This document shows positions 59 through 61,800 of a stretch of DNA of 64,000 nt, piece by piece. Below the pieces are notes generated by a model. It had not been told where the DNA came from and did no database searches. It saw only the letters and a program-made list of their open reading frames with translations. This stretch comes from Quercus robur (lineage: Eukaryota; Streptophyta; Magnoliopsida; Fagales; Fagaceae), in assembly GCF_932294415.1 (NCBI RefSeq), contig NC_065535.1, positions 29,094,782 through 29,158,781 of the forward strand. Direction: 5' to 3'. Every line of letters starts with the position of its first letter. Position 1 is the first letter of the stretch. The position numbers and the translations under genes are program-made.

Positions 59-2472
59 CTAAGCCTCAGCAGAAGGATTCTCTTTCTGCTCTGGCTGAGG
101 TGGAACCTCGGAGATGGACTCCTTGGCAGGATCCTTGGCTTTATCAAGCACAGGGATGGCATCAGAAATAGCCGCGGCCTGCTCAGAAGCTTCAGGAGCG
201 CCATCAGGATTCTCTCGGATCTCCAACGGAAAAAAGACCTTCTCGGGCAACCTCAGCGCCGAGTCTGCAGGAATCCCTGCAACATCAAGGGCATAAGCCC
301 ATGAGATGCTGCAATACTCCATGCATACCTCTGGAATCTCCTCAGAGAGCCTGGCTTCAGTCTCCTCTGCCCCAAGCTTATAAGAGGCCTTCTTCTCAGC
401 CTCGGCTGCTTCCCGAGCTAGCTGAACCTCTTCTTTGGCCCGCCGGACCTCCTCCTCAGCTTTTTGTAACGTGGCCCTTAGATCCAGCACTGTTTGTTTT
501 TCAGTGGCCAGGCTGGTCTCGGTCACGTACAATTGTTGGCGCTGGTCCTTCGCTTGGGTTTCAGCGTTCTTCAAGCCGGCCTCAGCACTCCGGCGCTTTT
601 TCTCCTCCTCTTTGAACTTCTCCGCAAGTTCAAAGTTCTCTTGCTTGAGGGACCCCACGATTTTCTCCACCTCTGTCCGAGATTGAGCCTCAGCTTCAGC
701 TAAGCTGCGGTTGCTGCGACAGAACACCTCAGCCATAAACACCTGCTGAGTGATCTGCCAACAAAACAAAAATTATCTAGAATGCAACAATGTTTAATGA
801 TTTAACAATTGGGTAGAAGAGTGACTCACCATTGCAAGGTCCCTCTTAAGGGATAGAAAGAGCTCGGGCTAAGAGAACCTCCTGTAGGCCTCCATATCTC
901 GAAGGAGGAGTACTGGCTGCTCCAAAACCTCAGCTATGTACCCTGCTCGGCCCCTATTGTATTCTCGGACCGATGCAGTATAAGGGATAGCAACCCCATC
1001 CAGCTCCAGCTTTGGGCCCCAAATGCGCGGTTGAGCACACACTTCGGCTCGGTTCTCCTCCTCTCGGCTCTCCACGGAGGAAGCCCTTTTATTCTTTTGC
1101 CCCCGGGTGGTTTTTTGCTGCTTGCCCTGGCGGGGCACCACCTCGCCTTTCTCAGGGATTTTAGCCGGCCTTTTCTTTTTTAGGTCCGGGTTGACCTTAA
1201 GGCCCAGGTCAGAAGGAACCTGAGGAGCAACGGGAGGGAGGTCCTGGGTTTGCGACTGAGCAGGCACCTTTGAAGATTGACCTTTCCCTCGGGAGGACAT
1301 CAACTCTCGTAAGGTTTTTCCTTTGCCAGCCATATTGTCTACCTCCTCGTCTGAAGAGTCGTCCGAGCAGGCTATAATAATCGGAGCGCCGACCGCGGAG
1401 TTTCGATCCTGCTCTCCTTCAGGGTCCGAGAGCTCAATCAAGGGGGCTTTATGAACCTCCTCTTCAAAGTAGAACTCGTCTATCTCCTCCTCAAGAGAAA
1501 GACGAGATGATTCAGTCTCTCCTTCAACTGGCATAGCAACTTCAAGGTTGTCTGGCGGGGGCAATTGCTCAGCTGGTGGAGGATCCCGAACACCAGATAA
1601 CACGACTGGTTTGAGATCTTCTCGACCAAGAAACTTGGGCTTGGATACGTCAATCCTAGCCAACCTTGGACTACCAGCTCTTATAGCATGACCAATGGCT
1701 TGGAAGGAACGGGTTAGTGGTTGGTAGCCCAAAACCAAATGACACGCGCGTAGCTACCCGTCCTCGGCAACGTAGATTTCTGACCTTAGAAGATAGTTCA
1801 AGGCCTGAACATTCACGTGGCTCAGCCTGGGAGCAACCAGAGCTCTATCTGCAATACAGCCAAGAAGGAGATTAGAGTTAAACTACAAAATTTATGACTA
1901 AAGCAAAAAAGGGAGTGAATCCGAAGAGCTAAACCCCCTCCCTAAAGGATTGGCCCTAAAGGCGCCGCACGTGGAATTCCTGTCCGAGTTGGACAATGAA
2001 AACCATCGCTTCATTCTCCTAAGGCAATGAGAAAGTCATCCTTCATAGTTTTATTGGATATGGGGAGGCGGGAGATTAGCCTAACCACCTCGGATCGAGA
2101 TTTAAGGTAATACCCTCCCTTCTCGAGGTAGTGGCACTCGTACATGTGAACCACATCATGCCAGGTCAGGCCTAGACCCATTCGCTCGTTCAAGACATCT
2201 ATGCAGCCTAATACCCTGAACATGTTTGGAGCGCACTGGTGTGGTGTCAACCTATGGTGGAACAAGTAGTCCCGGGTAATCCTACGCATGGGAAGTGTCA
2301 TTCCTCCTTGTATAAAGGCAATCATAGGAATGACCACTTCACCCACGTCTCTATCTAGCAATACTCCTTCTGGGGGACAGTACCGCAGAACCACCCCCTG
2401 CGGGATGTGGTATTTTGCCCTAAAGGCCTCCATGGTAGCCGAAGTGTCTACTAGGTCTTTGAATCTACCCAT
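59..2472 (-). pseudogene. Retrotransposon antisense gene (aORF), copy 1, spliced, decayed
   Basis: The gene has three coding blocks. Exon 1 (2472 to about 2010) encodes a domain resembling the 'putative gypsy type transposon' family (Transposase_28, PF04195), with motifs such as MGRFKDLVD, GEVVIPMIAFIQGG and PHQCAPNMFR. Exon 2 (1848-830) encodes an acidic then basic linker, and exon 3 (754-59) a long Glu/Lys/Ala coiled coil of about 130 residues with a proline/glutamate-rich tail. Intron 2 is canonical (CAATG|GTGAGT, TTGGCAG|ATC) and exon 2 follows a TTGCAG acceptor. Exon order and introns match the copy at 40751-43152. In-frame TAG stops lie in exon 2 near 1753 (where copy 2 has a Gln) and near 871, just before the conserved LKRDLAM end. 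The first-intron donor appears mutated. The function of this protein family is unknown. Confidence 0.75.
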
Positions 2473-2746
2473 CTAAGCTGAACGGGAGGGACGAAAATAA
2501 AAACCGAGGAGAAAAGTGAAATCCGAGGAGAAATTCGAAGCAACGAAACGAGCGGAACTTACGGGTATCTTCACAAACGACCAGTGAGATGCTCGAAAAT
2601 CTCTTTTAGGAAGGACGCTTCGCGGAAACGATTATGAAAATTTGAAGAACGGAAGTGCTCGTAGATTTCTGAGCGTTGGAGTTCTCTGGAGTTCTCTGGA
2701 CTTCTGATATGCAGGTAAAAAAAAAGAAAAGATGAGCCTCTCTGGT

Positions 2747-2757
2747 GCTTTATATAG
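2747..2757 (-). promoter_or_regulatory. TATA box of antisense gene copy 1
   Basis: CTATATAAAGC on the minus strand lies about 275-285 bp upstream of the ATG at 2472, between the antisense gene and the LTR. The homologous copy has TATAAATA at 40480-40487, 271 bp before its ATG. In copy 1 the ATG directly follows a CTTAG acceptor-like site, and CCGTAAGT occurs in the leader, so a 5'-UTR intron is likely. The promoter role is inferred from position and conservation. Confidence 0.5.
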
Positions 2758-3014: not shown

Positions 3015-3765
3015 TGTGGGGACCGGCCCAGAATAATAGGCTAGCTGGGTCCTGGGCCCGTCCGAGGATCCATCTGTCCGAGGAGACGTCGTGGCCCAGA
3101 ATCCCTATCCAGGCCCGCAGGGGTAAAGAGAACACGTCCGAGGAGTCATTCCTCCTCGGACGTTCCAAAAATCCAGATCAAAAGTGCATCCCAGCTACTG
3201 TAGTCTCCCTTCCAAGCATGTAAAAAGAAAGGAAACCCCAAATATCTCAGCAAAGGCTGCCACCATCACATTAAATGCACCATAGCTACTCTCTTGGCCG
3301 CATTAATGAGGAGAAGACCCCTGAACAGTGCCACCTTGGTCACTGCAACTCACAAAGAACTGATAAGGGTGTCTGATGTGACAGGTGCTCAAGTGAGGGT
3401 TTGGATGATCAATAAGTGTAAAGCCCAGATGATAGAAGAGGGTCTATATAATATGTAAAAGTCCCCCAAGAGAAGGGGACGAGAAAAAACAGAAGGAGAG
3501 AGAGGAGAGAACATTGTAGAGGTTTTATTTGCATGAATCTGTGCCCGTTAATCAAGTTGGAGACTGTATCATCTGAGAAGGATCTCTTTTCATTGTTACC
3601 TTCTTTTATTCTTGTTTCTGTGTCTCCTAAGTCCATGCAACAAACCGAATAAGCCAATTGGAACCAAGTTCTTTAGCCCATTCTCTACAGAAATTCATTG
3701 TGTGGGACTTTTTGGGCCAAGACTTGACCAACAAGGATCAGGTCAACTAAAATCGTGTCCCTACA
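3015..3765 (+). repeat. 3' LTR of the truncated element
   Basis: The 751-bp LTR begins TGTGGGGACC and ends GTGTCCCTACA, giving TG...CA termini with matching inverted ends. It contains repeated CCGAGGA motifs like the LTRs at 36529, 39184 and 49923, so it belongs to a related family. The partner LTR lies outside the window, so a target duplication cannot be checked; the downstream 5 bp are AAAAT. Confidence 0.75.
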
Positions 3766-18000: not shown

Positions 18001-18237
18001 GTGGGACAACACATCTTTCTTTAATGGCTATGGAGGAGTATCCACCCAAGAAACTTTATATGGGTTAGGGTGTGGGGTCAGTTTCAAGCCTAGGCAGGAG
18101 ACAACATTAAAGGACACCGCATTAATGCAACTTCCACTATCTATAATAACCTTGCAAGTTGTCCCCACACTTAGTGTAAGTTTGGAAGATGGCACTCTTT
18201 CGCCAATCATCAGTGTCCCTTTGCTCTGCCAAAGCAC
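15019..18237 (-). pseudogene. Inverted copy A: protease, RT, RNase H, integrase
   Basis: Read on the minus strand from 18237. The protease region has IIDSGSC intact, then a 1-nt deletion shifts the frame near 18035-18049. RT (17566-16433) has [11 protein letters not shown] and the LKSGYHQIR motif. RNase H follows ([22 protein letters not shown]), then integrase: a zinc-finger remnant with CxxC near 15980, and the core at 15925-15173 with IVSDGD and HGQTEVVN. The first catalytic Asp of integrase appears as Asn (VSMNFVLG). It ends within the integrase C-terminal region (LPNPIDALW) at about 15019, so the chromodomain is missing. That piece is found in plus orientation at 25263-25407. Several in-frame stops. 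Confidence 0.8.
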
Positions 18238-20728: not shown

Positions 20729-23700
20729 TGGGCATTACTTAGGCTAGTGTAGAGCTCCCCAAAATCTGGGCATGACTCATAATCATCCTTGAGTCATTCA
20801 AACCTAATAACCTTAACACTCATGACAAATAGCAAAGACACCCTTCGACTTAGTGCATCAGTAGCCTTATTCTCAACTCCTGCCTTATGTTTCACCACAA
20901 AGTAGTAGCGTTGCAAAAATTCAACCCAACTACTGTGCCTAAAATTCAGCTTCTTTTAGGAATGGAGATGGCGCAAAGCTTCATGATCAAAGCAGATAAC
21001 AAATTCTCGAGACAACAGGTAATGGCGCCAATGCCAAAAAGCTCGAATAATGGCATAAAACTCTGTCATATGTGGAGTACTTTTGCTTAGCGTCATTCAA
21101 CTTCTCACTGAAATAAGCAATTGGGTGGCACTCTTGACTAAGTACTCCCCCTATATCAATACTTGAGGCATCACATTCCACTTCAAAAGGCTTGGTAAAA
21201 TCAGAGAGACGCATGATAGGTGCCTCAGTCAGCTTTTGTTTTACCTCATTGAAAGCCTTAGAAGCAGCTTTAGTCCAAACAAACTCCCCTTGTTTCATGC
21301 AGTCAGTGATGGGGGACATAATGGTACTAAATCCCTTGATGAATCGGCGATAAAAGGAAGTGAGCCCATGAAAGCTTCAAATTTCATGGATATTTTTGGG
21401 CTTGGGCCACTCCACAATCGCTTGAACCTTTTGGAGGTCGGCAGAAACTCCCTCAAACGATACTATGAAACCTAGGAAGACGACTCTATCCGTGAAGAAA
21501 GAGCACTTCTTGAGGTTGCCATATAAACTCTCCTTCCTAAGGGTAGTACAAACTTGAGTTAGGTGGTCTAAGTGTTGCTCCCTAGACTTACTATAGATAA
21601 GGATGTCATCAAAGTACACAACCAAGAATTTCCCCATAAAAGGCTTGAGCACTTGAGTCATCACTCTCATAAAGGTACTAAGAGCATTGGACAATCCAAA
21701 AGGCATGACCATCCACTCATATAAACCATCCTTCATCTTCAAGGCAGTTTTCCACTCATCACCAGAACAAACCCTAATTTGATGATAGTCACTTTTCAAG
21801 TCTATCTTGGAGAAGATTGTTGCTCCAACCATCATATCCAACATGTCATCCAACCGTGGGATAGGAAAACGATATTTCACAATGATCTTGTTGATGGCAC
21901 GACTATCAATACACATCCTCCAAGTTCCATCTTTCTTTGGAGTTAAGAGTACAGGGACTACACAAGAACTCATGCTTTCACAAACAAAACCCTTCCTAAG
22001 TAGTTCTTCTACTTGCCTTTGCAACTCGGCATGCTCTGCAAGGCTCATCTTATAGTGAGGCAAGTTAGGTAGGGTCACTCCGGGCACAAAATCTATGGCA
22101 TGTTGTATGTCACGCATGGGCGGTAAATGATCGAGGAGTTCCTCAAGGAAAACATCCTTAAATTCCTGAAGCACTGACTTCACTTCTTCAAGTTGCTCCT
22201 CACGAGTCTCCCCATGAAGTTTCCTAGCAATTAAGACAAACACAATGGATTCTTGAATTGCTACCCTTTCAAAGGCCTTTGGGCTTATGATGTTCAGGTC
22301 TTTTGCCTTTGGTGCTTCTGTCTTCTTGCTCATGTCGATTGGCTTGGGTTTCAAAAGATTGAGCACAATCTTCTTACCTTCAAACATAAATGAGCAAGAA
22401 TTGGATCGCCCATGAAAGGTGACATCCAAATCATAAAGCCAAGGCCTACCTAAGATAATATGCCCTACATCCTTGGGAATTACGTCACACCATATTTTGG
22501 CCTTGTAGGTGAGGAATTGAAGTGGGACAACACATCTTTCTTTTATGGCTATGGAGGAAGTATCCACCCAAGGAACTTTATATGGGTTGGGGTGAAGGGT
22601 CAATTTCAAGCCTAGGCGGGAAACAACGTTAGAGGACACCACATTAATGCAACTCCCACTATTTATAATAACTTTGCAAGTTTTGTCTCCACACTTAATG
22701 TAAGTTTGGAAAATGGCACTCCTTCGCCAATCATCAGTGTCTCTCTGCTCTGTCAAAGCACACCTTACCACATTCACTCTAGGGACACCAAAGTCCTTGA
22801 AGTCATCAACCTGGGAAGAAATGGCTCTAATGCATGCGAGGTAGCTAGGATTATCTTCCCATTTTGCCTCAACATCTTGGGTTTCTTCAACATTTGGATC
22901 ATACACCAACTCTTCAACATCTTCTACCTTTTCATCATCCTCTTGAATGACAAGGGTCCTAGAGGGACATCTAGTAGCAATGTGTCCAACCCCATTGCAT
23001 TTGAAGCATTGAAGGCGAGAGCCTAATCTTGAAGGCTCATTGACCACACCTTTTCCCTTGTCCTCTTTTTCTATTGGGGTGCTATTGGGGTTGACCTTAG
23101 GGAGTAAGGCAAGTCTAGATTTGCTACCAAAAGGTTGAGGGTTGGTGGGAACACTCCGGAGCTCAGAACGTCGCCAAAAGATAGATTTGGATGCTAATTC
23201 ACAATTCCTAGCAAGGCCATATGCTTCTCTTAAGGTAGTGACTCCTTGGGTGATAATCTCGCCTAGTAAGTTAGCATTTAAACCTTTCTTGAACCTATTG
23301 AGTGTGACAACCTCTTTCTCGACAATTCGAATTCGCCTCTTGAACTTCTTTATATATTCAGCCACAAGAGCAGTGCCTTGCTTTAGGCAATCTCATTCCT
23401 CAAGGAGAGAGCTCTTATAAGTTGGAGGAAGATAATTCCTTGAGAGTGCATCCTTTATCTCAAGCCAATCAGTAATGGGGGGCTCATGCCGTCGCCTAAG
23501 GGTATCTTCAATGTCTTCCTAGAAAAAGTCAGCTCTTCCAATTAACTTCATCCTAGCATACCTCACTTTCTTATTCTCAGCCCGATGGTAGTAGTCAAAG
23601 AATTTCTCCATCTGACGCAACCAATCAGTGAAAACCCATGGGTCTAGGTAGCCATCAAAGGTGGGTACTTCTATCTTTTCCTTGAAAATCCTATCATCAT

Positions 23701-23938
23701 AATCCCTAGGGCCATTATGATTATAGTGATCATGTTCAAAGTTTGGAGCCCTATTAAAGTAACTATGGTTATTTTGCCTAAGCATATTATCTCCTTCATG
23801 GTTAATATTCTCTCTTTGAGATGCTTCAATTCGCTCAACCCTATCCAGTAAATTATGGACACTTTTTGCTAGGTCTTCTATGGTTTGCTCTAAGGAGGGC
23901 CTAGGCTCGGAAGTGAATTGATGTTCAGAGTTTGACAT
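20729..23938 (-). pseudogene. Inverted copy B: gag, protease, RT, RNase H
   Basis: Gag starts at ATG 23938. Most of gag-protease-RT is one open frame of 662 residues (23365-21377), the best preserved coding stretch in the element. It holds the zinc knuckle CFKCNGVGHIATRC, protease with INSGSC (catalytic Asp changed to Asn), and RT with [11 protein letters not shown]. Stop codon TGA at 21379-21377 interrupts what copy A reads as IQSFHGL-like sequence. RNase H (from 21319) has a 2-nt deletion near 21064 relative to copy A. Integrase is absent: the copy ends in the linker after RNase H. Confidence 0.8.
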
Positions 23939-25262
23939 GATGCGACCACTACATGCATGCACACTATATTTATGAATGCAATTGAAATTCACAAAAGTTC
24001 AAGTAACCAATTCTTAATGTAAAATTAAGGTCAAGCAAGAGTACATGTAGAGATTATAAATGAATCAAAGGAATAAATTGTAGTCAAGTAGTGACAGTGT
24101 TCACAATATTGAGAGATAGCCCAAATAAAAGTCAATTTCCAATAAGCTCCACAATTAATAATGAGAATCAGATATTTCAAAGAAATTGGTTTTTTTTTTT
24201 TTTTGGAATTTTAGAATGTGTACTAAAAGAAAGCACAAATAATAAAATAACTAACTTGAGCACAAAATGGGTAGGCCAGTGGGGTATAGTGGGATATGCA
24301 CATAAAAAATATAAAGATAATATCTTTCAATGAGACAAAATTGAACCCACCAAAAAGAGAGTAAGAGTTGTACCCTAGTCAGTGGCCAACTTATTGCACT
24401 AGATAGTCACGGGCTTGGGTCCTCAAGTGAATGGATCTTACTTGGACAAGTGTACCTGTGGATGAACAATTTAAAGGCCAAATACATGCAATGGGCTGTC
24501 ACAGTAACAATACTTTCTTTCTTTTCTTTCCCTTTGATTTTTTTTTTTTAATTTTTAATTTTTTTTGCAAAAATAATAAAATACACTGCTGCTTTAAGAC
24601 ACTACAGACACGAACTTAAAAGAAATTCAAACGGACTTAAAAGAAACTACAAACATGGACTTAAAAGAAACTCAAAGTACAGACTCTAAAAGGAACTCAA
24701 ACCACGGACTAAAAAGAAAGACCACAGAAACTAAAAGAGACTGGCGATGGACTTGCGATGCTAGGGACCGGCGACTATGGCGGTGCGACGATAGGGGTGC
24801 CAACATTGACAAGGAAGATAGCGGCGGCGAGACATGGAGGTGGTCGATGTCCTCAGCGGTAGTCGATGTCCTCAGCGGCGGTGATGGCGTCGGCGGCAAG
24901 TGGCTGATGGGCCAGTAGCAGCTAAGTGTTGATCTATGGGTTTCGGCGGCTGGTGGGCTTGCGTGGGTCACCTTTCCTTCTTTTTTTTTTCTTTTTTTTT
25001 TTTGTGGTTTGTGGGTTGTGGGTTCTGTGATCAAAGGCGGGCAAGGAAGGTGGTCACCGGCTTGGGAGGCACTACTGGCTTCTCTATTGGCTTGGGGGTG
25101 AAAAACTCATGTGGGGCTTGCAGGAATATACGGATTGCAGGGGCTGGTTTGGGCTTGTTCAAGATCTCTGGGGCAAAAACTTGAAAGGTACTATCATCTT
25201 TAGCTAGCTTGCTCTTTTGGTGGTTTTGCTTTCAAGTGGTTGTCCACGATTGTGTTGTATGG
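23939..25262 (-). other. Inverted leader, copy B
   Basis: Second reverse-oriented leader, with the same GC-rich block (about 24760-24920) and the about 25-bp repeats (about 24600-24730). A 1-nt deletion breaks the leader frame near 25163. It ends at the RC of CCGGTCCATACAAC, then the sequence jumps to plus-strand pol. Confidence 0.75.
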
Positions 25263-35808: not shown

Positions 35809-37611
35809 AGGGTAGAATACACTAACCTACCTTGAGGTTTAGGGTAATGTCAAGCACATCCAAAACTTCTTAAAAATAACCAATTTGGTCCTTGAAGACA
35901 AACGGCATGTTACATCGTTTGTGCACTCTTTAGACCCAAACTTTTTCTTTTATATCTTTTCTCCTTTCTTTCTTCTTATCCTCAATAGTCAACACCACAC
36001 CTCCACACACCTGGCCCTCTCTCTATCCCTTGTTTCTTTTCTTCTTCCTTTATTTCTCACTTGATTCTCTCTTTCTCTTTCTATTTTCTTTTCCTTTGCC
36101 TAGCCAAATCTTACCCTTATGGATCTTCTTTCTCCCATCTCTCTATTTTGTTGATGGAAATCCATCAATATTGGCCAGTGGGTTAGTAGTTTTCGATAGG
36201 ATGACTAGATTTGGCTTTAACAGCAATATTGGGGTGGAATTTTGGATCTTGGTTGATGTGATTGGGTTAAGGTCATTCGGGTTTTCATTGGTTTCTTTGT
36301 GAAGGAGATGAAGTTTTTCCTTTTGGTTTTCTCAGCAGCCAAACATTGAGTAAAGGCATCTAAAGACTTTATATGGCTCTTCCTTTTGATTTTTTTGGCT
36401 ACTAAATTAGGAATGAAGAAGATTTATGGGTTTTACTTTAAATTTTCTTGGCTGCCAAACACAGGATGGGGAAGATCTATGTGACTTTTTCTTTGGATTT
36501 TCTTGGCTACCAAACACAAAATTATTAATGTAAGGACCAGATTTGGTTCACTAGCCCAAAAGGTGGATGGACTTAGGCTCAAAAAGCCCAATACAATAAA
36601 TTTGTAGAGAGTGGGTTGGAAAATTGGGCTTTAATGAGTTAGACAACCAATAGATTGGATCCAGATGACAAGAAAATGTAGATAGACCAGTTTAATCTAA
36701 AGAAAACTATCCTCGACACAGTCCAAGGAGATCAATTCTTATATATTGCTTCTCAAGTTTAATTACAAATTCAGTTCTTGATTGCTACAGTGTTTCTCTC
36801 TCCCCTTTTTGATCCCTTCTCCATGGAGGGTCTCTTACATTATATATTTCCCTTTAGATGATCTTGGTCCTCCACTTGTTGATCATCTAAGTTACTACTT
36901 GAGTGCTTATCCCATCGAACACCCTCTCAGGCTCTCTATGAATTGGGGTAGCCAATGCAGCACTGTTCAGGGGTCTTCTCCACATTAATGCAGCTAGAAA
37001 GTTAGTTGTAGAGCATTTAATGCAGTGGTAGCAGCTTTCTCTTGAGATATTTTATGGCCTCCCTCTGTTCTATTCCTTTTGGATACTTATCCTCATTAGT
37101 GGAATCGTCCGAAACGTTGCTCCTAGTGTCAGACCACACCTTCTGACCTCGACTTTGCTCAGCTGAGGAAGTATTCCTCCTCGGACAACCTTCTCGGATG
37201 GTCACGATTAGACCTCACCTCTTTACTTACCAACACAGATTCTTAGGGAAGTGTTCACCCATCCTTGGACTACTTAATGTCCTCGGATTAGACCCCTGGC
37301 CCAATATATATATGGATATGCATTCCTGCGCCTATCACCCCTACAATTAATAATTTCATTTTAAGAAAAAATCTAAGAAAATCGTTGGTATGGTGTTGAT
37401 GAAACATGAAATGGTGTAGTGTTAATGTGCCACTTGTTTGCTATCTTTGTAGTCTTCCTTTAAAAATCCCAAAGAGCTTTGCACTGGGAGAGAATGCACA
37501 CATGGCCTTACACATCGTTAATGTTTAAAGGACCAATTGGACATTTTAAAGAAGTTTTGGATGTTTTTGGAATTATCCCAAACCTTAGGGTAGGTTATTG
37601 TATTTTACCCT
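35809..37611. mobile_element. DNA transposon with about 85-bp terminal inverted repeats (Mutator-like?)
   Basis: The left end (35809-35893, AGGGTAGAATACACTAACCT...) and the right end (37611-37528, RC AGGGTAAAATACAATAACCT...) are inverted repeats of about 85 bp that share AACATCCAAAACTTCTT and end near GGTCCTT. Such long TIRs suggest a Mutator-like non-autonomous element, but a 9-bp target duplication is not clear; ATTGTT flanks both ends, off by one base. Without the nested solo LTR the element is about 1 kb. The interior (about 35940-36300) has pyrimidine-rich then gene-like sequence, and three degenerate TTTTCTTGGCTNCCAAACA repeats (36330-36520). Confidence 0.6.
36529..37345. repeat. Solo LTR of the Tat/Retand family
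   Basis: 817 bp, TGTAAGGACCAG...CCCCTACA, flanked by a perfect 5-bp target duplication ATTAA (36524-36528 and 37346-37350). It shares its start, GGATGGACTTAGGC-type motifs and CCTCGGA motifs with the LTRs of the element at 39184-50738. No internal sequence remains, as expected after LTR-LTR recombination. Confidence 0.88.
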
Positions 37612-39183: not shown

Positions 39184-40201
39184 TGTAAGGACCCGATTTG
39201 AGTTCCTAGCCCAACACGTGGGTGGACTTAGGCCTAAGAAGCCCAAAACAATGAATTTGTAGAGGAATGGGTTGGGAAACTGGGGTTTAGTTGGTCAAAC
39301 AACGAGCTAGATAGGTTTGATGACAAAAAGATAAAAATGGACAACTGTAAAATGAAGAAAGAACGTCCTCGGCGAAATCTGAGGACAATGGTTCTTATAT
39401 AATGCTCTTAGATAACGTTACAAGTTTGATTGTGGATTGCTACAGTATTTCTTTTCTCAATTTTTTGATCCTCTAATCTTGTTTCCTCCTTCTTCTTTTA
39501 TACCCTCTCTCCTTTTCATCTCCACCTTCCACCTGTATGCTAGATGGTTAGGCCTGATACTTGTCCCATCAGCACTTCCCATAAGTTCTCATGTAGTAGC
39601 TGTAAGGCTGAAATACACTGTTCAGGTATCACTTCTACATTAATGCGGTCAGGGGATTAGCTGCAATGCATTCAATGCGGAGATAGCAACTTTCTCCCTA
39701 GATATTTTGGGGCTCATCCTTATCTTATATTTCTGCAATGCTTGTCCGCCCCAACTAAATTTCAGGGGTTGTCATCCTTGCTGTCACACCATCTTCCAAG
39801 ACCTCGGCCAAGTCCGGCCGAGGAAGTTTTCATCCTCGGCACACTTTCCGGAGCTATTATGACCAAACCTTATTTATCAGCGCAATCTCCTTTGACGAAG
39901 ACTTCTCCTCCTTGGGCAGATCCCCGTTCTCGGCTTGAGCCACATGCCCAATATATGGATAAATAATGAACTTCTAGGCCCAAGGGCCTTACAATAACCC
40001 CTTCCAGGACCTCGGCCAAGTCCGGCCAAGGAAGTTTTCATCCTTGACACACTTTCCGAAACTATTATGACCAAATCTTATTTATCAGCACAATCTCCTT
40101 TGACGAAGACTTCTCCTCCTCAGGCAGATCCCCGTTCTCGGCTTGAGCCACATGCCCAATATATGGATAAATAATGAACTTCTAGGCCCAAGGGCTCTAC
40201 A
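39184..40201 (-). repeat. 3' LTR with a duplicated U3 segment
   Basis: 1018 bp, against 816 bp for the partner. The excess is a tandem duplication, period about 208 bp, of the segment from the CTCGGCCAAGTCCGGCC region to AATAATGAACTTCTAGGCCC (for example at 39957 and 40165). In the element's orientation this is the start of the LTR, that is U3. Confidence 0.88.
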
Positions 40202-40225
40202 ATAACCCCTCGAGATTCCCCTTTC
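40202..40225 (-). other. Polypurine tract (minus strand)
   Basis: The RC reads GAAAGGGGAATCTCGAGGGG then TTAT, directly before the 3' LTR start TGTAGAGC. Its GAGGGGTTAT end matches the PPT at 3001-3014. Confidence 0.65.
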
Positions 40226-40479: not shown

Positions 40480-40487
40480 TATAAATA
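40480..40487 (+). promoter_or_regulatory. TATA box of antisense gene copy 2
   Basis: TATAAATA is preceded by a CT-rich stretch and lies 271 bp before the ATG at 40751. CCGTAAGT (40623-40630) is a donor-like site and CTTTTCTAG (40741-40749) an acceptor-like site just before the ATG, so the leader probably contains an intron. The same elements occur at matching places in copy 1. Confidence 0.5.
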
Positions 40488-40750
40488 TCTATTAAATCAA
40501 CTTTTTTCCTCACTTTAGCATTCATTTCGTTCTAGCGCTCATACCTTGAACCTGCACACTTTTTCAAATTTCTTGAGCCCTTACAAATACTAAAGACCCA
40601 TCTGAGGACACCTTTATTCTTTCCGTAAGTCTTCTTGAACTTTTACTCTTTAATTTTCTACACCTTCCTCTTTTCTACACATTCTTTCTTTTTCTCCTCG
40701 ATTCTAATTTCCTTTCTCAATCTCTTTAGTTTTCCCAGCCTTTTCTAGAA

Positions 40751-43152
40751 ATGGGTAGATTTAAGAGTTTAATAGATTCCGAGGAGGGGATAGAAAGCTT
40801 TAGGGCTCGTTATAGCATCCCTCCAAGAGTAGGAATTAGGTACTGTGATGAGAGTCAATGGCACGAGGATAAGCAAGTCGGGGAGGTAGTAATCCTGATG
40901 ATTGCCTTCATAGAAAGAGGGATGAAAATCCCCATGGGTGGAGTCACTAAGGACTACCTTAGAGCTCATAGGTTGGCTCCTACTCAGTGTGCCCCTAATA
41001 TGTTTAGGATTTTAGGCTCCATGGATGCCCTTAATGAAAAAATGGGTTTCGGTCTAACCCACCACGATGTCAATTGGGTCTATAACCTTCACCGTCTAAA
41101 AGGGCAAGGATACTACTTGAAATCAAGGTATCCCGAGGTTAGGCTCATTTAATGCCTCCCCAAATCCAACAAGGGGTTGAACAAAGACTTCCTGATCTTG
41201 TCGGGGGAGTGAAGTGATGGTCTCCCTTGCCTGACGAGAGAGGGAGAACCATGTGGGGTACTAGGTCTAGGGTACTCATTTATAAGTCCTTTCTCTGATT
41301 TGTTGTATTTTTATATCTGATAAAACTTTATTTCACTGATGGATTTGCAGACAAGCGCGTTGCTGAACCGAATTTCAACCTGGTCAACAAGGATAGCCTA
41401 GAAAAAATCCTTAAGGCCGAGGTGTTTGTGAATTTGGATGGTCAATTACGAGCGGCTCACTTGATCCTAGGATACACGTTGATCTCGTCAAGCTTCCAAG
41501 CTCCTAAGTGTGTCATAAGGGCCAGAGACCCCCGCCTACACCGGATAAGCTAACTACGCCAGGTTTCCTTCTTCCTGGTCCAAAAGTAGAGAGCGTAGAA
41601 ATCACAACCCCCATTCCTGAAGGTATACCAAAAGTAAGGGCCTCGTCACTACAACAAACAACCAGTGCGGCCATTTTGTCTCACCCCCCCAACATACAAG
41701 AAGAAAAAGTGGTAGAAGTAGCTGATTCCGAGGACGAGTTTGAAATTTTCAACCATGTCTTGTCCCTGGAAATTTCAAATCCTGATCTCGGTCCTCCATT
41801 CTCACCAATAATCGACGAGATAGGGATACAGCGCAGACCAAAGTCCAGTTTGCTTGATTTAATAGAGTCTCAACTTGGGAGGGATGCACTTGGGAAGGCT
41901 GCCCAGACTAAGCTTCCCACTCCTCCATCTGCCTTGCCCTCTCAAGCGACAGAACTAAAGAGGAAGAGAGAGTCAAAAGGGAAGGAGGTGATGGGAGCTG
42001 GACAAATCCTTCCCCCCCGCGAGGACGAGGTTCAAAGGGCATCCAAACAAGCCAAAACGGGGTAGAGGGGCACCGAGAGGGGTGCCGAGAAGAGGAACGA
42101 TCCCCAGGTTGGGCCTCTAGCCTAGCTCCTTGCCCCAATGCTGAATGAGGAACCTCTCTTTGCTAATGCCTCAATTTGCGATTTTCAAGGAGGAGTAGCC
42201 AATTACGTGGCCGACGCAGTGAAGCAAGCCTTGCTACTCCCCGAGGACATGGCCAAGCTACGTGATATAAGGAGACATGAGGTTTTCCTCAATCTCAAAA
42301 GATATTTGGCTATGGTTCGTCCCCATCCTTTCTTTCTAACTTATTCTCTTCACTTTCCTCTTATAATTCTTCTTTCTTTCCTTGGCAGGCTATTCAAGCA
42401 TATTTCCGAGCCGAGGAGATGGCTAACTCCTGCCATCAACAGATGAAGGAGGAGGAAGGGAGGCGCAACGCTGCTGTGGATGCCTTTCACGTGGCCGAGA
42501 AGAGCATCTAGGAGCTTAAGAAGAAGCTGCAGGAGGAGAAGAAAGAAGGGAAGTATGCGGTGGCAGCCCTAGAGAGTGTTGAAAAGCAAGCTGAAAGCCA
42601 ATGGCTGTTGCTACGTACTGCTGAGGACAACTTGGCCCCTCCAAAACTCAAATTGCTGCACTAAAAAAGAAATTGGAAGAGGTCGAGAAGGCCAGAGTTC
42701 TCACCGAGAAGGCTCAAGAGGAGGTAAAGAAAGCCAAAAAAGAAGCAAAGCAGCATGGCTATGACGTAGGCGTGGCCGAGACTGAGGACGCCCTTAATAC
42801 CGAGGTCCTTGCTGTTTGCAGAACTTACTGCACCCTGACATGGGACGAAGCCCTCAACCAGGCTGGGGTTGAGGCCTCTTCCATGCTCAAGAGGGAAAAA
42901 AGTGTCTACTACCCGCCAGCCATATGCCTTGCGAGCTCTTCGGATTCTAAGGCCGACCCAGCACCCTCGAAAGCAACTGAAGCCCAAGGAAGTCCACCCA
43001 GAGCCCCTCCTGTAGCTAATACTTCTTCTGAGGGTGGGGAGCAGGCCGAGGACACTACAAGAGCTGGGGATGCCAACAAAAGCACAGTCCAAGGCACTGA
43101 CTTAGCTCTAACTTTTCCAGGGGATCTCCTTAAAGAAAAAGAAACTTCCTAG
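40751..43152 (+). pseudogene. Retrotransposon antisense gene (aORF), copy 2, spliced, decayed
   Basis: Transcribed opposite to gag-pol. Exon 1 (40751 to about 41210) encodes the PF04195-like domain (MGRFKSLID, GEVVILMIAFIERG, TQCAPNMFRILG) but has a TAA at 41150-41152. Exon 2 begins after TTTGCAG at about 41352 (DKRVAEPNFNLVNKDSL...DGQLRAAHLILGY); a frameshift follows near 41510-41550 and a TAG near 42063. It ends at LKRYLAMG before a GT donor at about 42317. Exon 3 starts after TTGGCAG at about 42390 and encodes a Glu/Lys-rich coiled coil (a TAG near 42510, a frameshift near 42660), then VAETEDALNTEVLAVCRTYC...EKETS, ending at 43152. Architecture matches 59-2472 throughout. Function unknown; other members occur in Tat-lineage elements of other plants. 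Confidence 0.78.
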
Positions 43153-43729: not shown

Positions 43730-44515
43730 CATTGTAACTGTACCCAGAGTATGTCATGCTTAGACACTTAGGTAATGGCCAAGACGTGTTAACTTTCCTA
43801 AGGCAGATGGTCTGAGGAACCAGACTTAGCTAAGGTCATGTTTGATGCTCAGAAAAATATTTCTAAGTATTAATTTATCCAAAGCAAATGGTCCGAGGAA
43901 CCAGACTTAGCAAAGGTTCTGTTTAATACTTAGAATAATTAATAAAGTTATTAATTTTCCCAAGGCATGTGGTCTGAAAAGCTAGGCATGGCCAATGTTT
44001 AGTTTGATACTTAGATAGATGCTAAGGAGAATTTTCCCAAAGCAGATGGTCCGAGGAACTAGGCATAGCTAAGGTTTTGTTTAATACTTAGAATAACGAA
44101 TAAAGTTATCAATTTTCCCAAGGCATGTGGTCCGAGGAGCCATGCATGGCCAAGGTTCAGTTTGATACTTAGATAGATGCCAAGGAGTATTAATTTTCCT
44201 AAAACATATGGTCCAAGAAACCAGGCATAGCTAAGATTCTGTTTAATACTTAGAATGATGAATAAAGTTATCAATTTTCTCAAGGCATGTGGTCCGAAGA
44301 GCCAAGCATGGCCAAGGTTTAGTTTGATACTTAGATAGATACCAAGGAGTATTAATTTTCCCAAAGCAGATGGTCCGAGGAACCAGGCATAGCTAAGGTT
44401 CTGTTTAATACTTAGAATAACGAATAAAGTTATCAATTTTCCCAAGGCATGTGGACCAAGGAGCCAGGCATGGCCAATGTTCAGTTTGATACTTAGATAG
44501 ATGTCCAGAACACAT
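43730..44515. repeat. 81-bp / 162-bp tandem array in the element's 3' region
   Basis: About nine monomers of about 81 bp alternate as two types, giving a 162-bp higher-order unit. GGTCCGAGG-type anchors lie at 43809, 43890, 43971, 44048, 44129, 44210, 44291, 44372, spaced 81 bp except for one 77-bp step. Type A carries GGAACCAGGCATAGCTAAGG, type B GGAGCCAGGCATGGCCAAGG. Confidence 0.9.
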
Positions 44516-44560
44516 GACAAGCAATATAACAAACCCAAAATAAGGTGAAGAGAATCTCCA

Positions 44561-45663
44561 TTAATAATAATATCTCCTTAGATTATATACATTCCAAGGG
44601 CGTGGTACGGCCCTTTCCTCTAGATCTAAGAGATAATATGCACCAATCCAGGCCACTGATGTAATACGATAGGGCCCCTCCCAGTTAGGTCCCAACTTCC
44701 CCCACGTTGGGTTCTTGGCAGTCCCTATAACTTTTCTTAGAACCAAATCTCCAGGTGCCAGTGGCCCTAGCTTCAAGTTAGCATCGTATTTTTTTTTTTT
44801 GAGCTTGTGTTGATAATAAGCTAATTGGACCCTAGCATTTTCTCTTTGTTCTTCAATTAAATCTAGGCTCTTTTCCAATAGCCCATCGTTACCGTCCGGA
44901 GTGAAAGAACTTGTTCTAAGTGTGGGGAACCCAGTTTCCAAAGGAATGACAGTTTCGGCACCATAGGTCATTGAGAAAGGCGTCTTTCTAGTAAATCTAT
45001 GAGGTGTAGTTCGGTAGGTCCAAAGGACGTGTGGTAATTCTTATACCAATTTTCCTTTTGTGTCGTTTAGTCTTTTTTTGAGTCCATTCACTATAACCTT
45101 GTTGACAGCCTCGGCTTGCCCATTTCCTTGTGGATAGGCCAGAGTGGAATTCCTATTCTTTATTCCCAGATCGCAGCAGTACCTCCTAAAGGTTTTACTA
45201 TCAATCTGAATCCCATTTTTCGAGATGAGGGTATGAGGAATTCCAAACCAAGTGACAATATTCTTCCAAACAAATTTTTTGGCGTCCACGTCCCTGATGT
45301 TTAACAAGGGTTCAGCTTCGACCCATTTAGTGAAGTAATCCGTGCCGACCAACAAATACCTCTTATTCCCTGCTGCCTTAGGGAAGGGCCCCACAATATC
45401 CAAACCCCACTAAGCGAAAGGCCAAGGACTGGTTAAGGGATTAAGGACTCCTCCAGGTTGGTGGATGTTTAGTGCAAATCTTTGGCATTGGTCACACTTC
45501 TTTACATAGTCTTGTGCTTCCCTTTGCATGTTTGGCCACCAGTAGCCTTGTGTGAGGGCCTTGTGAGACAGAGACCTGCCTCTCGTGTGGCTTCCACAAA
45601 TTCCTTCGTGCAATTCTTCTAGGAGTAGTTCCACTGCTTCAGGGTGCATGCACAATAGATACA
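44561..45663 (-). pseudogene. Tat/Retand integrase
   Basis: Zinc-binding region HEGICGSH...CDQCQ (45655-45410), then the core (from about 45403) with LDIVGPFP, then ISKNGIQ where the family has Asp before Asn-Gly, so the second catalytic Asp is replaced by Lys. The catalytic Glu is in YPQGNGQAEAVN. The C-terminal domain runs to PRPWNVYNLRRYYY (44564). Stops: TAG in PFA*WG near 45411 and TAA in KLV*ELPH near 45041. Inactive. Confidence 0.85.
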
Positions 45664-45679
45664 GGCCAGAAAAAGATCT

Positions 45680-46300
45680 CTAATACAGTTTCTGATCCTC
45701 GAACACCCAAAACCGAGGTGTTTTTCTTTGCACCATGTCAGCCTCAGATTTATTCTTGGGCAAAATATCTTCTTTAAGGAATAGCGCAATAGAGTCCATC
45801 CAACTAGGCCCCACCCTTACTTGGTGAACATGAACCACATTCCTTCCCACCTCAGAAGGTTTACATAAGTTTTCCACAAGGATTACCCGGGGTAAGCCCT
45901 GTGTCGAGGAAGTTTCTAGTGTGGTGAGAGAGTTTGCATGTGCATTCCTACTTCTAAGAACTTGTGATAAAACAAAAGACTCAAATCCAGATTGCAAATG
46001 TCTAACCTGACTCAAATACTCCTACATTCTAGGATCTCTTGCCTCCAACTCCTCTTGGACTTGGTCTACCACCAGCCTTGAATCAGAGAATATCTCCATT
46101 ACTTTTCCACCAATTTTCTGAACCATGGTCATCCTTACCAAGAGAGCTTCGTATTTGGCCTTATTGTTTGTAGCCGAGAATCCCATTCTTAAGGATTTCT
46201 CGATTGTGATCCTTTCTGGGGATACTAGGACTAGCCCCACTCCAAATCCTCTTTAATTAGCTGCACCATCAACGTAAACCTTCCAGGACAAAGGTTCTTG
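45680..46300 (-). pseudogene. Second (archaeal-type) RNase H domain and tether
   Basis: After the LTR-retrotransposon RNase H comes WKVYVDGAAN*RGFGVGLVL, then NNKAKYEALL and SDSRLVVDQVQEELEARD (46240-46022). This is the pattern of the additional RVT_3-type RNase H known only in the Tat branch among plant gypsy elements. TAA interrupts DGAAN*RG, TAG follows ARDPRM, and TAG ends the tether at 45680. Confidence 0.8.
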
Positions 46301-46399
46301 CAAGGGGATTGTGCCAACTGATTTTTCATTCATGTTTTGCTCCTCTAATTTATCTTCTGATGGGGTCTCAGCGAACTCAGCTACCAAATCAGCGAGGAC

Positions 46400-47644
46400 C
46401 TAACCTTTGACTGAGCTGCAAGGCATATATTTGATATCAAATGCCCCTAGGATCGTGCCCCACTTTGCAATTCTCCCTGTGTAGTCGATGCTTCGAAGTA
46501 GGGATCTGAGTAAGAGTTGAGTTAAGACAACAATTGTGTGTAATTGGAAATAATGGGGGAGCTTACGTGTGCCATGCACCACCGCCAAAATGGCCTTTTC
46601 AAGTGGTAAGTACTGGACCTCAGCTTCATGTAATGACTTGCTTATATAATAGACTGGTCTCTACACGCCACAGTCGACACGAATCAAAACTAGACTTACT
46701 GCGTGGGGGGCCATGACAAGGTAAGCAAACAGAACCTTGTCCACCTCAGGCCTTGACATAATTGGTGGCCGAGAAAGGTATTCTTTCAACTGCTGGAAAG
46801 CCTGGGCACATTCATTGGTCCATTCAAACCCCTTCCACTTGTTTAACAATTTAAAGAAAGGTCTACACCTGTCAGCTGATCGAGAGATGAACCGGTTCAG
46901 GGCAAAGGTCATTCCTGTAAGCTTCTGGACCTCTTTTGGATTCCGAGGTGGTTGCAGGTTGTTGATCGCCTTAATCTGGTCGGGATTGACTTCAATTCCA
47001 CGATGTGTGACTATGTAGCCCAAAAACTTGTCTGACCCGACACCAAAAGAACACTTGGAAGCGTTAAGTCGTAGTTTGTGCTTCCTTAAGATATCAAAAA
47101 TATTCCCGAGATCATTAACATGCTCGGACTCTTCCTTACTTTTTACTACCATATCATCGATATAAATCTCAATGTTTTTCCCTAACTGTGGTTCAAACAT
47201 CCTAGTCATCATCCTTTGGTAGATAGCCTCAGTATTCTTCAAACTAAAGGGCATCACTTTGTAATGATAGTTTCCTATAGGAGTGACAAAAGATGTCCTT
47301 TCCTGGTCGTCCAAGGCTATAGGTATTTGATGATACCCTTGAAAGGCATCCAAAAAGCTCATTCGATGGTGGCCTACAGTTGCGTCCACCAACTAATCAA
47401 TCCGAGGCATAGGGAAAAGGTCCTTTGGGCAGACTTTGTTCAAGTCTATAAAATCTACGCAAACACACCACTTCCCCGTCTTCTTCTTAACCACTACGGT
47501 GTTAGCCAGCCATTCAGGGTAAAAAACCTCTTTAATAGCCCCAGCTCGCTTAAGTTTCATCACCTCGTCCTTTACAGCATCCGAATGCTCTTTGGATGAA
47601 CGTCGAGGTGGTTGTTTCCTGGGGGGTGACAAATGGATTGACAA
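46400..47644 (-). pseudogene. Tat/Retand reverse transcriptase and RNase H
   Basis: RT fingers and palm: AGAIKEVFYPEWLANTVVV, RIDxLVDATVGHHRMSFLDA, VMPFSLKN, and the catalytic YIDDMVVKS. Then the connection (FLGYIVTHRGIEVNPDQ) and RNase H with PVYYISKSLHEAE. Stops: TAG after MPRID (47393-47395), TAG in CGV*RPVYY (about 46661), TAG after SSVKG (46400-46402). Each sits where related elements have Gln. Confidence 0.88.
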
Positions 47645-48577: not shown

Positions 48578-49865
48578 CTATCCGTTGGGTCGGTACAGAA
48601 ATTGTTGCAACTTCCCCTCCTTAACCAGTTGTTCCAGATGGTTCCACAATGTTCGACAATCCTCAGTGGTATGTCCTCGGTCTTGATGATACTGACAATG
48701 GAGGCTTTGGTTGCACCTTGAAGGATCTTCACTCATCTTGTTCGGCCATTTAAAATACGGCTCGTTTTTTATCTTCCCTAAAACTTGATGCGCCGATTCT
48801 CGGAACACGATGTTTACAACTTGTGGGGTTGCAAGTCTAGATTATCTGGCAAAATCTCACCGGGTTTTGTTATTATTGTAACGTTCCAACCTGAAATCCC
48901 TCATCTCCTAAGGGATAACCTTGCCCTTCCCCTTATCTTACAACTGGTCTTCCTCAACCCTCTTATACTTGTCAATCCAATCCATGAGTTGACATATACT
49001 GGTGACAGGTTTCCCCGTCAAAGATTTCCTTAAGTCGTGCTCTGCAGGCAAGCCGAGCTTGAAAGTACTAATGGCCATGTCCTTAAAATCACCTTATATC
49101 TCGTTGAACATCTCCCAATATCGGTCCGAGTATGTTTTTAGAGTTTCTCCCTCTCTCATGGACAGAGATAGCAAAGAAGCCAAAGGATGAGGAGCTCTGC
49201 TGCACGTAATAAAATTGGACCCAAACGTTTGGGTGAGTTCCTTAAAGGAACGGATGGATCTTGCCCTTAGACTATCAAACCACCTCATTGCACATCAAGG
49301 CTTCATTCTTGGAATGTACAGTCATCTTTAGATTAAAGTGGCTAACATGTTCAACAGGGTCCGTTTTGCCGTTATACAAGGTGAAAGTGGGTTGAATGAA
49401 CCGCCGAGGAAGTCTTCCTTCCTCAATCCAATGGGTGAAGGGTGATTTAGAAATTTGGTTGAGTGCTTTACTCACAGCGTCATTTACTAGGCCTCTCGAA
49501 GATGAATTATTGTTTCTGCGTCTATGGCGGTAATCTTTGTCATACGAGAAAGATTTGCTGGGGGGAGTTCTTGATTTTTGCCTATAGTCTTGATCCTTCT
49601 CATCATCGGAAGAGTAGTCAGAATTGGAGGGGGCTCGCCTTCTGCGCTCGTGGCATAAGCTTATCTTTAGGTGATCAATTTCCTTTTGCATGTTTTTGGC
49701 ATTTTCTTCATGAGAGATATGGTTTTTACCTTGAGACCGACTCTTACTGGTGTGGGTAGTGTATACACTTCCCTCCCAGTCTCTCCTTCGCTTAAGTTCA
49801 CGGAAATGATCTTTATGTTGAGAGCCCATAGATTCTGCTGGATTTGGACCTGATTCTACCATCAT
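48578..49865 (-). pseudogene. Tat/Retand gag
   Basis: Starts MMVESGPNPAESMGSQ just after the PBS. Basic, Arg/Ser-rich N-terminus, then the retrotrans_gag domain (WIEEGRLPRRFIQP, YNGKTDPVEHVSHF, WFDSLRARSIRSFKEL, YSDRYWEMFNEI). The knuckle-like CQYHQDRGHTTEDCRTLWNHLEQLV follows (48700 region). Broken by a frameshift near 49280 and further lesions near 49090 and 48810. Confidence 0.8.
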
Positions 49866-49922: not shown

Positions 49923-50738
49923 TGTAAGGACCCGATTTGAGTTCCTAACCCAACACGTGGATGGACTTAGGCCCAAGAAGCCCAAAACAATGAATTTGTA
50001 GAGGAATGGGTTGGAAAACTAGGCTTTAGTTGGTCAAACAATGAGCTAGATAGGCTTGATGACAAAAAGATAAAAATGGATAACTGTAAAATGAAGAAAA
50101 AACGTCCTCAGCGAAATCCGAGGACAATGGTTCTTATATAATGCTCTTAGATAACATTACAAGTTTGATTGTGGATTGCTACAGTATTTCTTTTCTCAAT
50201 TTTTCGATCCTCTAATCTTGTTTCCTCCTTCTTCTTTTATACTCTCTCTCTTTTTCATCTCCACCTTCCACCTGTATGCTAGATGGTTAGGGCTGATACT
50301 TGTCCCATCAGCACTTCCCAAAGTCCTCATGTAGTAGCTGTAAGGCTGAAATACACTGTTGAGGTATCACTTCTACATTAATGCGACCAAGGGATTAGCT
50401 GCAGTGCATTTAATGCGAATGTAGCAACTTTCTCCCCAGATATTTTGGGACTCATCCTTATCTTATATATTTGCAATGCTTGTCCGCCCTAATTGAATTT
50501 CAGGGGTTGTCATCCTTGTTGTCAAACCATCTTCTAGGACCTCAGCCAAGTTCGGCCGAGGCAGTTTTCATCCTCGACACACTCTCCGGAGCTATTATGA
50601 CCAAACCCCACCTTTTATTTATCAGTGCAATCTCCTTTGACGAAAACTTCTCCTCCTCAGGCAAATCCTCATTCTCGACTTGGGCCACAGGCCCAATATA
50701 TGGATAAATAATGAACTTCTGGGCTTAAAGGCCCTACA
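49923..50738 (-). repeat. 5' LTR of the Tat/Retand element
   Basis: 816 bp, TG...CA, the same sequence as 39184-40201 except for the single-copy U3 segment and scattered substitutions. Flanked on the right by the target duplication ATAAT. Confidence 0.9.
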
Positions 50739-58882: not shown

Positions 58883-61800
58883 ATGATTACGGAAGAGAAT
58901 CCTGTAATGAGAGCCCTACGGCGAAGTCAAACTTCTTCACCGTCGTCAAATTCATCTTCATCTTCACCGTCATCGTCGTCATCGTCATCATCGTCGTGGA
59001 TTCATTTGAGATCGGTTTTGTTAGTCGTTGCTTCATCATCATCATCGTCATCGTCACCATCGTCATCACAGTCACAGTCACAGTCATCATCATCATCCTC
59101 ACCAATTCCCACTGATCGGTGAGTTCCTGAATTTTCCACCAAAAAGTACCATTTGTTTTTTCAATTCAGTTTCGCTTTTCGCTACTTTTTCTCTCTTCAG
59201 ATCCCGATCTGTACAGTACTCAATTTGTTTTTTCTGATTCCAAACTACTATTAGTTAGTTGAAACACTCTCTCTTTCTTAGATTCAGATTCTCTCTCTCT
59301 CTCTCGCTCGCTCGCATAAGACTTAGCTTATACGGCTAGTTATACAGTGATTGTGATAGTAAATTTTGTTTTTATTTACTGTTTTTCCCTCAATTTTTAT
59401 AATTTGTTTGTAATAAAAAATGTGATTGTGATATATATATATATATATATATTTTTTTTTTTTAATTTTTTTTTTCAATGTTATAAATTTTGAATTTTGA
59501 GTATGAAAATGTTAGAAATGAACTCCAGGCTATTTGTTTTGATTACGATATCATTTTCAAAAGCACTCATTATTACTGTCTCTATGTAAGCATTGATGGG
59601 AGGATGTCTCTGTTGCATAGTGTGATGATAGATTTAGCTGTTGGGCATTGGTTTTCCTGTTCTTAAATTATTGGAAATGTGTTGCTTTCGATTCAATGGG
59701 TTTTTCATGCACATCAAACATAGTCTCGAATTAATTAATGTTTGCACAATGGGATAGAGGCTGATTTTATTTGCGCTTTTGATGCATGCATATAGGGATA
59801 GTTTTTAATGATTGATGAGTTAAACTGATGCTTTCGCTCTTCATATAAGAGTGTTGCTTTAATGCGCACATAAACATTTTTACTTGTTTCCCCCCATCTG
59901 GGAAAAGTATTTAATTTGTTTCTTCTTATATTCAGGGGAACTCTTAAATCACCTTGGTCACGTAAGAGAAGAAAACATGCCCTTCTTCCCAAACAATGGA
60001 ATAGGTTCTTTACACCAGATGGAAGGCTCAGCGATGGTGGAGCCAAGTTTCTGAAGAAAGTTCGCAGTGGAGTATGTCATTGATTTTTCTCAGACTTAAT
60101 TATTTGCTCTTTTGTCAAATTTTTATTTTAGATTTTTTTTTTTTTTTTTTTTTTGTCTTTTTGGTTGCTTATGTTTTTCCCTGTATATTTGTTACTGCTG
60201 TGAAGATTTGATTCCTTATATCTCTGATTCAGGGTATTGATCCAAGCATTAGAAAAGAGGTTTGGCCGTTCCTTCTTGGAGTGTAAGCATTTCCATCACT
60301 GTATCTTTCTGTATGGATGTCTTTGTGTGCATTTGCATATACTCATATTTTTCTTTCCTCTCTTTAATTTTAGAACTTTTAGATAGATTTAGTTATCTTC
60401 AATAATTTTTTGTTACATTTTTAGTCATTACGCTCAGGTTAGCCTGGTCTTATGAATTGCTTGATCCATGGCTGACTGTAAGGCTTGGGTGATTTGCAAT
60501 ATTCATGTCTGACCCTTGTCCTGGATCCTTATTCATTCTTGTCTTAAACTCAAAATCTGGTTAAATACTTATACTTCTCATAATTCTACAAGTGTCTAGT
60601 GCCTGTCATATGGGATGAATGAGAGGGCTGGGGTACTGATTGCTGGCTTGCAAATAACTGTCCTTGTCCTTGGGTGATTTGCAATATTCATGTCTGACCC
60701 TTGTCCTGGATCCTTATTCATTCTTGGCTTAGACTCAAAATCTGGTTAAATACCAATACTTCTCATAATTCTCCAAGTGTCTAGTGCTTATCATATGGGA
60801 TGAATGAGAGGGCTGGGGTATCGATTGCTGGCTTGCAAATAACTGTTCCTTGTCTGGCAACCTAAATTTAGGTTTAGGTGCTTTTTTAACAAAACTTTTT
60901 TATGTAACTACTTGATTGAAAAATTCATTGTGTTGACTCTAGTTTGCTTGAAAGAAGCTTTTAGAAGTAGGCTTTCAGCACTACCATTATGGCTGCTAGG
61001 TATATTGACTTATGTTGAGAAATTCTTCTTGTCACATAGAGAAAACAGACATAAAGATTGCTATTTAATAGTGCTTTCATCTATGTTATTGGTTTTTTTT
61101 TGTTCACTGGATGCTGGTTGTTAATTTAATGGCCAAATTGCTCTAGATCTCCTTGCATGTATTGACTTATATTTGCATGTGCAACAGCTATGACATGAAC
61201 AGTACTCAGGAAGAAAGGGATTTGATCAAAGAACAGAAAAGGTATGTATTGTCATTACATTCATTGGGGCTCTCCTATGCAATTATTCAACAGTTATCAC
61301 TTAATATTTGGTAGAGCATATTCATTCCTATGTTTTCCACCTCCCTCCCCTTCTTCCCTCCTCCTCTTTTTCCCCTAGTTATTGTTCTTTTTTTCTGATG
61401 CAGAAGAGAATATGGTAGCCTGCGGAAGCAGTGCAAGCAAATTTTAAAACGCAGTGAAAAGAGCTTAAAGTCCAAGGAAACTTCTGGGATCAGCAGCAAT
61501 GAGGGCAGTGGGGATTTTAGTCAGGTTTTAGATTCTTCTTGCTCAGAAGACATGGCCAGTGCCAGTAGGTCCCCTTTGATCTTTGGAAGAACATTGACTG
61601 AGGATCCAGATCCCCCTATCTGGGATCAAGCCCTTCAATCCCCTTCATTATTGGAAGAAGATGGTGATAAGAGTGGACTAACTTGTGAAGATGCCTCTGC
61701 TGGTGATACAGAGTCGTCTGATTCTGACTCCTCAGAAGAACCTGAAGACATGCAACCTTTACTTGCCACCAAGGGAAGTGAAGAAAATTATCTTGATGAG

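Follow-up and report, generated by a model that had tools for sequence, protein, structure and literature searches.

Two predicted genes in a 64,000-nucleotide stretch of the Quercus robur genome (the whole stretch analysed, hereafter the window) read against the sense of the LTR retrotransposons that carry them. This arrangement raises the question of whether a retrotransposon lineage maintains a spliced, separately expressed gene on the strand opposite its genomic RNA and, if so, what kind of gene it is. A preliminary description of the locus had proposed that promoter and splice sites conserved between the two copies imply selection on an autonomous antisense transcription unit. We analysed the two elements, their antisense genes (copies A and B) and eight further copies from the same genome, and compared them with published relatives.

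Anatomy of the two elements and their antisense genes

The anatomy of the locus can be observed directly (Table 1). Element A has its sense strand on the minus strand, where gag-pol persists as decayed pieces in separate frames. Its pol domains follow the order reverse transcriptase, RNase H, second RNase H, integrase, an order that was seen in element A only and that Neumann 2019 gives for Ogre and Retand (PMC6317226). The second RNase H piece, placed between RNase H and integrase as is common to Ogre and Retand, matches solved ribonuclease H chains (E 8e-5). The long region between pol and the 3′ LTR that marks the Retand lineage was also found: at most ~4.8 kb lie between the end of the integrase core (45044) and the LTR edge (40201), beside a published range of 2,933-6,566 bp (PMC11963269), and both the antisense gene and the tandem array fall within this stretch. 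A minus-strand open frame overlapping the array (44062-44577) gives a weak DMP12 match (19.9 bits against a cut-off of 27) that is probably spurious.

A 208-bp stretch is tandemly duplicated within the 3′ LTR of element A (TRF coordinates 39793-40210). Excluding this duplicated part, the LTR pair differs by a K2P distance of 0.076 (50 transitions and 8 transversions over 813 sites, with no rate applied), and from this distance element A is read as an old insertion. The motif ATAAT occurs at both outer flanks of the LTRs; because it sits within an AAT repeat, the target-site duplication is uncertain. A separate LTR-like stretch at 36529-37354, ~66% identical to the element A LTR, is possibly the solo LTR of a third related element.

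Table 1. Features of elements A and B and of their antisense genes in the window (a slash marks a splice junction)
Feature	Position	Strand	Remarks
Element A, 5′ LTR	49923..50738	-	
Element A, gag piece	49097..49294	-	PF03732
Element A, pol pieces together	45044..47392	-	
Element A, RT	46664-47392	-	
Element A, RNase H	46403-46660	-	
Element A, second RNase H	46025-46252	-	RVT_3; 19.9 bits, just below cut-off 21.6
Element A, integrase zinc finger	45413-45679	-	
Element A, integrase core	45044-45409	-	
Element A, tandem array	43789..44503	.	81/162-bp units, between antisense gene and pol; 81-bp repeat at 43789-44497
Element A, 3′ LTR	39184..40201	-	inner edge read from sequence
Copy A, TATA box	40480..40487	+	TATAAA, -271 from ATG
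Copy A, predicted leader intron	40625..40748	+	CC/GTAAGT ... CTAG/AA, putative acceptor
Copy A, exon 1	40751..41252	+	PF04195-like, putative 3′ end
Copy A, first coding intron	41253..41350	+	donor weak and putative; acceptor TTTGCAG aligns with that of copy B
Copy A, exon 2 region	41351..42314	+	frame broken
Copy A, last intron	42315..42388	+	GT..AG, 74 bp, phase 0
Copy A, last exon	42389..43152	+	frame broken, charged, coiled-coil-like
Element B, 3′ LTR	3015..3765	+	edges read from sequence
Copy B, TATA box	2749..2756	-	TATATAAA, -284 from ATG
Copy B, predicted leader intron	2473..2562	-	CC/GTAAGT ... TTAG/ATG
Copy B, exon 1	1971..2472	-	PF04195-like, putative 3′ end
Copy B, exon 2 region	830..1848	-	
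Copy B, last intron	755..829	-	GT..AG, 75 bp, phase 0
Copy B, last exon	59..754	-	coiled-coil-like

Copy A (40751-43152, +) starts beside the 3′ LTR and reads away from it, antisense to element A; it lies between pol and the 3′ LTR, is separated from pol by the tandem array, and is followed 3′ of its last exon by an AATAAA at about 43274. Copy B (2472-59, -) likewise starts beside the 3′ LTR of element B and reads away from it. Within the window, element B comprises only this LTR and the antisense gene, its gag-pol falling outside. The LTRs of the two elements are ~61% identical over 577 aligned columns. The homology of exon 1 is a direct observation: the two ATGs, at 40751 (+) and 2472 (-), open reading frames that both begin with MGRFK and share 58.6% identity across 133 residues (E 4e-48 when the window was searched). 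Two homologous antisense genes at matching places beside the 3′ LTRs of clearly diverged elements, as the preliminary description had it, are thus what the locus contains.

The further claim that the gene lies opposite gag-pol fared differently. Its antisense orientation is shown directly in A and follows from the LTR orientation in B, but the gag and pol pieces found in element A occupy coordinates that rule out copy A lying opposite them, and no overlap with these pieces was found.

Family membership and the probable protein

Against PF04195 (Transposase_28, TRP28), copies A and B score 20.4 and 21.8 bits, under the Pfam gathering cut-off of 26.2, so their homology to this family rests on a bridge to better-scoring copies. 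Exon 1 of the window pair aligned, at an hhalign probability of 93.7 (E 1.8e-7, 133 columns), with a profile built from eight other PF04195 copies that this genome carries. These eight copies (L001-L008) ranked highest for PF04195 when 150 of 4149 candidates were scored, and all pass the cut-off; some are closely related to each other, and their antisense placement in Retand elements is assumed. The PF04195-like domain assigned in the preliminary description is upheld through this bridge, but not by direct Pfam score. A search of viral contigs with the window antisense protein returned one pattern match and no relative, and the fold predicted for it together with a second window protein was unusable (mean pLDDT 38).

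Antisense ORFs had been described as already known from Retand-type elements, and two papers agree (PMC11963269, PMC7264820). The former (Vicient 2025) reports antisense TRP28 (PF04195) ORFs for 97% of recently active Retand clusters and, for about half, tandem arrays in that region; in PMC6317226, just 23% of the Retand elements surveyed have the PF04195 domain. The window genes resemble the TRP28 ORF of Vicient 2025 in place, antisense orientation, domain and a tandem array near pol. They differ in that both window copies are broken and score under the Pfam cut-off, and in that PMC11963269, in whose text the word "intron" is absent, counts uninterrupted ORFs, whereas we model a spliced gene.

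Other relatives are likened by description (PMC7264820, PMC11963269). Maize Grande gene23 (Gomez-Orte 2013, as given in PMC7264820) is likewise an antisense gene of the 3′ internal region; it is reported to be transcribed from its own promoter, which in the window is only predicted, and to encode a nuclear protein. In RIRE2, Silene Retand and PvRetro13, too, the interval from pol to the 3′ LTR contains an antisense ORF (PMC7264820). HTLV-1 HBZ and related retroviral antisense genes, of which the HTLV product is a nuclear regulator, offer an analogy drawn in PMC11963269, with no homology claimed; the HTLV antisense promoter lies inside the 3′ LTR (PMC7264820), whereas the predicted window promoter lies outside it, the TATA boxes standing 279 bp (A) and 259 bp (B) from the LTR edge.

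The kind of gene is already known: A and B are members of its family, and the recurrent introns are a modest addition. We favour, with a probability of about 0.72, the interpretation that the two copies are decayed members of the known Retand antisense accessory gene (TRP28/PF04195, gene23-like), which probably encodes a nuclear DNA-associated protein. In working copies, Pol II would transcribe an antisense mRNA from a promoter situated between 3′ LTR and leader. Splicing would remove introns from this mRNA in the leader, behind the PF04195 exon and ahead of the last, coiled-coil-like exon. The resulting protein would most likely oligomerise, enter the nucleus and bind DNA or chromatin, and could there regulate the element or help the integration complex. 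DNA binding by the TRP28 protein is itself a prediction in PMC11963269.

A structural role offers a different account of the same protein, which would be a partner within the particle or the pre-integration complex and would not regulate transcription. Its charged, coiled-coil-like last exon and its presence in that 97% of recently active Retand clusters (PMC11963269) are compatible with such a role. The coiled coil proposed in the preliminary description, however, was significant in copy B, where none of 500 shuffles was as good in the heptad test, but not in copy A (132/500), and Pfam coiled-coil matches in the window gene pieces were all below their cut-offs. Ten scanned pieces yielded no gag-like domain, and the reported nuclear location of Grande GENE23 (PMC7264820) is compatible with either role. 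We consider a structural partner unlikely.

Neither window copy still encodes the full protein. Copy A has in-frame stops at codon 134 (41150-41152), codon 154 (41210-41212, +) and 42509-42511, together with a frame change within exon 2; copy B has stops at codon 154 (2011-2013, -), 1754-1756 and 869-871. The stop at codon 154 common to both copies may have arisen twice independently or in a shared ancestor, or it may mark where a shorter protein truly ends. Under the last of these, the protein whose start reads MGRF would be short and consist of PF04195 only, with the later exons read separately or decaying. The identical stop codon position speaks for such a protein, but A and B still share some of exon 2, the acceptor before it and the last intron, and the next two long frames of B remain open for 294 and 237 codons. 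A genuine end at codon 154 appears quite unlikely to us, and we retain the longer, multi-exon accessory protein as the preferred model.

Selection on the coding frame

Constraint on the protein is observed directly in codon comparisons. Between A and B, positions 1, 2 and 3 of exon 1 differ in 49, 36 and 78 of 133 codons, and maximum likelihood gives dN 0.379 and dS 2.416, the NG86 dS being saturated. The exon 2 block is looser, with 34, 24 and 49 differences at the three positions of 67 codons. Among the eight other copies, 15 of the 28 pairs have a finite dS, and dN/dS is 0.05-0.18 in 14 of these 15, values to be read knowing that many dS estimates are near saturation and that picking copies by PF04195 score biases dN downwards. 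The remaining measurable pair, which is also the closest (dS 0.10), has a dN/dS of 0.46. For the six pairs whose dS does not exceed 1.3, the ratios are 0.08, 0.11, 0.46, 0.11, 0.09 and 0.18. The copies compared do not show the ratio near 1 that would have counted against the selection first proposed.

Low dN/dS together with the third-position excess indicates constraint on the protein and makes a role of the RNA alone less likely. At the level of sequence, the comparisons support selection for an antisense coding unit. The possibility that the antisense frame merely echoes a sense gene was rejected: codon positions follow the antisense frame, and none of the eight open frames scanned on the sense strand opposite the gene carries a Pfam domain.

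An active antisense RNA has been raised as an option in PMC7264820. Such an RNA would base-pair with the genomic RNA in its 3′ portion and act through small-RNA silencing or copy-number control, leaving the reading frame secondary; the genomic RNA spans the interval, making pairing possible. Against this stand the exon 1 differences, which are most numerous at third positions, and the low ratios in 14 of the 15 measurable pairs. Moreover, the AATAAA of copy A precedes pol, so that overlap of the antisense RNA with gag-pol is not expected. We judge an RNA product to be very unlikely, and the protein-coding accessory gene remains the interpretation that we carry forward.

Promoter-like sites and introns across subfamilies

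All leader sites reported in the preliminary description were recovered in both window copies: a TATA box about 270-285 bp before the ATG, a leader donor CCGTAAGT (GTAAGT) at -126 in A and -90 in B, and a TAG acceptor at -5 in A and -3 in B. In 2000 shuffles per leader, over position ranges chosen after the sites had been seen, TATA[AT]A arose within -300..-255 in 1.5% (A) and 0.65% (B), GTAAGT arose within -200..-50 in 0.55% (A) and 1.8% (B), and all four sites together arose in 0/2000.

The equivalence of introns claimed for A and B holds for the last intron, of nearly equal length and the same phase, and for the acceptor of the first coding intron, which aligns between the copies; the donor of the latter is weak in both. 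The recurrence of the last intron is directly observed. It was found in 6 of the 8 other copies, with GT..AG ends in five of those six (the acceptor of L007 reads AA), and the search pattern gave no location in L002 and L003. The first coding intron was found in 4 of the 8. Between part of A/B exon 2 and the second exon of five of the eight copies, homology was not detectable (hhalign probability 0.1), so that the equivalence of the last intron between the two types rests on gene order and phase.

Leaders were compared in the five copies with an MVxxEVR start (L002, L003, L006, L007 and L008); L001, L004 and L005, which lack this start, were excluded. All five leaders of this other subfamily have a GGTA donor-like site at -128 to -164, a pattern that was picked after reading the leaders, matches elsewhere in each of them and was given no shuffle control; it finds nothing in A or B, where the donors read CC/GTAAGT. 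Strict TATA[AT]A matches were found in none of the eight copies within up to 600 bp before the first ATG, and in none of the five 540-bp leaders. Looser TATA[AT] matches occur in L003 at -496 and L008 at -439, and TTTAAA or TTTTTAA lies at -284 to -313 in three of the five. Of the leader layout extended by the preliminary description to other family members, the donor-like site before the ATG was therefore present in 5/5 leaders, but the strict TATA box in 0/5. The leader intron layout may be general across subfamilies, and the TATA box appears, in the copies compared, in the MGRF type only.

A CACGTG motif occurs at -319 to -389 from the ATG in all five MVxxEVR leaders (L002, L003, L006, L007 and L008), but neither A nor B has it in its 540-bp leader.

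The argument from conserved promoter and splicing to selection is borne out in part, through low dN/dS and the recurring last intron, but the TATA box is limited to the two window copies. That the gene is a chance arrangement or relic of degenerate sites never under selection is highly improbable. In its favour are the broken state of the window copies, the shortness of the TATA and donor motifs, the post hoc choice of shuffle ranges and the weaker constraint on A/B exon 2; against it, dN/dS is far under 1 across copies and the last intron recurs.

Some introns of the accessory gene look ancestral. Introns that lie opposite the genomic RNA strand would survive reverse transcription of the sense RNA, as the anatomy of the elements suggests, and this fits a unit that serves expression only. 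We tentatively extend this, at somewhat less than even odds, to the proposal that the antisense gene of Retand is an ancient unit of several exons, in which the leader, post-PF04195 and pre-last-exon introns predate the subfamily split and have been kept because their strand never serves as template RNA for reverse transcription. If so, a retroelement would keep a spliced gene by writing that gene backwards. Nearly every recently active Retand cluster is reported to carry an antisense accessory gene; were the introns ancestral, surveys of uninterrupted ORFs would have truncated these proteins, and the junctions would provide a sharp strand-specific test of expression. A search for antisense and spliced transcripts is called for by Vicient and Casacuberta 2020 (PMC7264820). 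Among the literature titles and abstract openings listed, largely of open-access papers, none described conserved introns in the antisense gene.

Elsewhere in the window, positions 16208-25262 form a 4.5-kb direct tandem duplication (89.7%), within which an open frame at 21377-23392 has reverse transcriptase and zinc-knuckle matches; 13341-15018 matches parts of this duplication in inverted orientation. On the plus strand, an open frame of 426 codons (61399-62679) carries a RabGAP-TBC domain and is likely part of a host gene.
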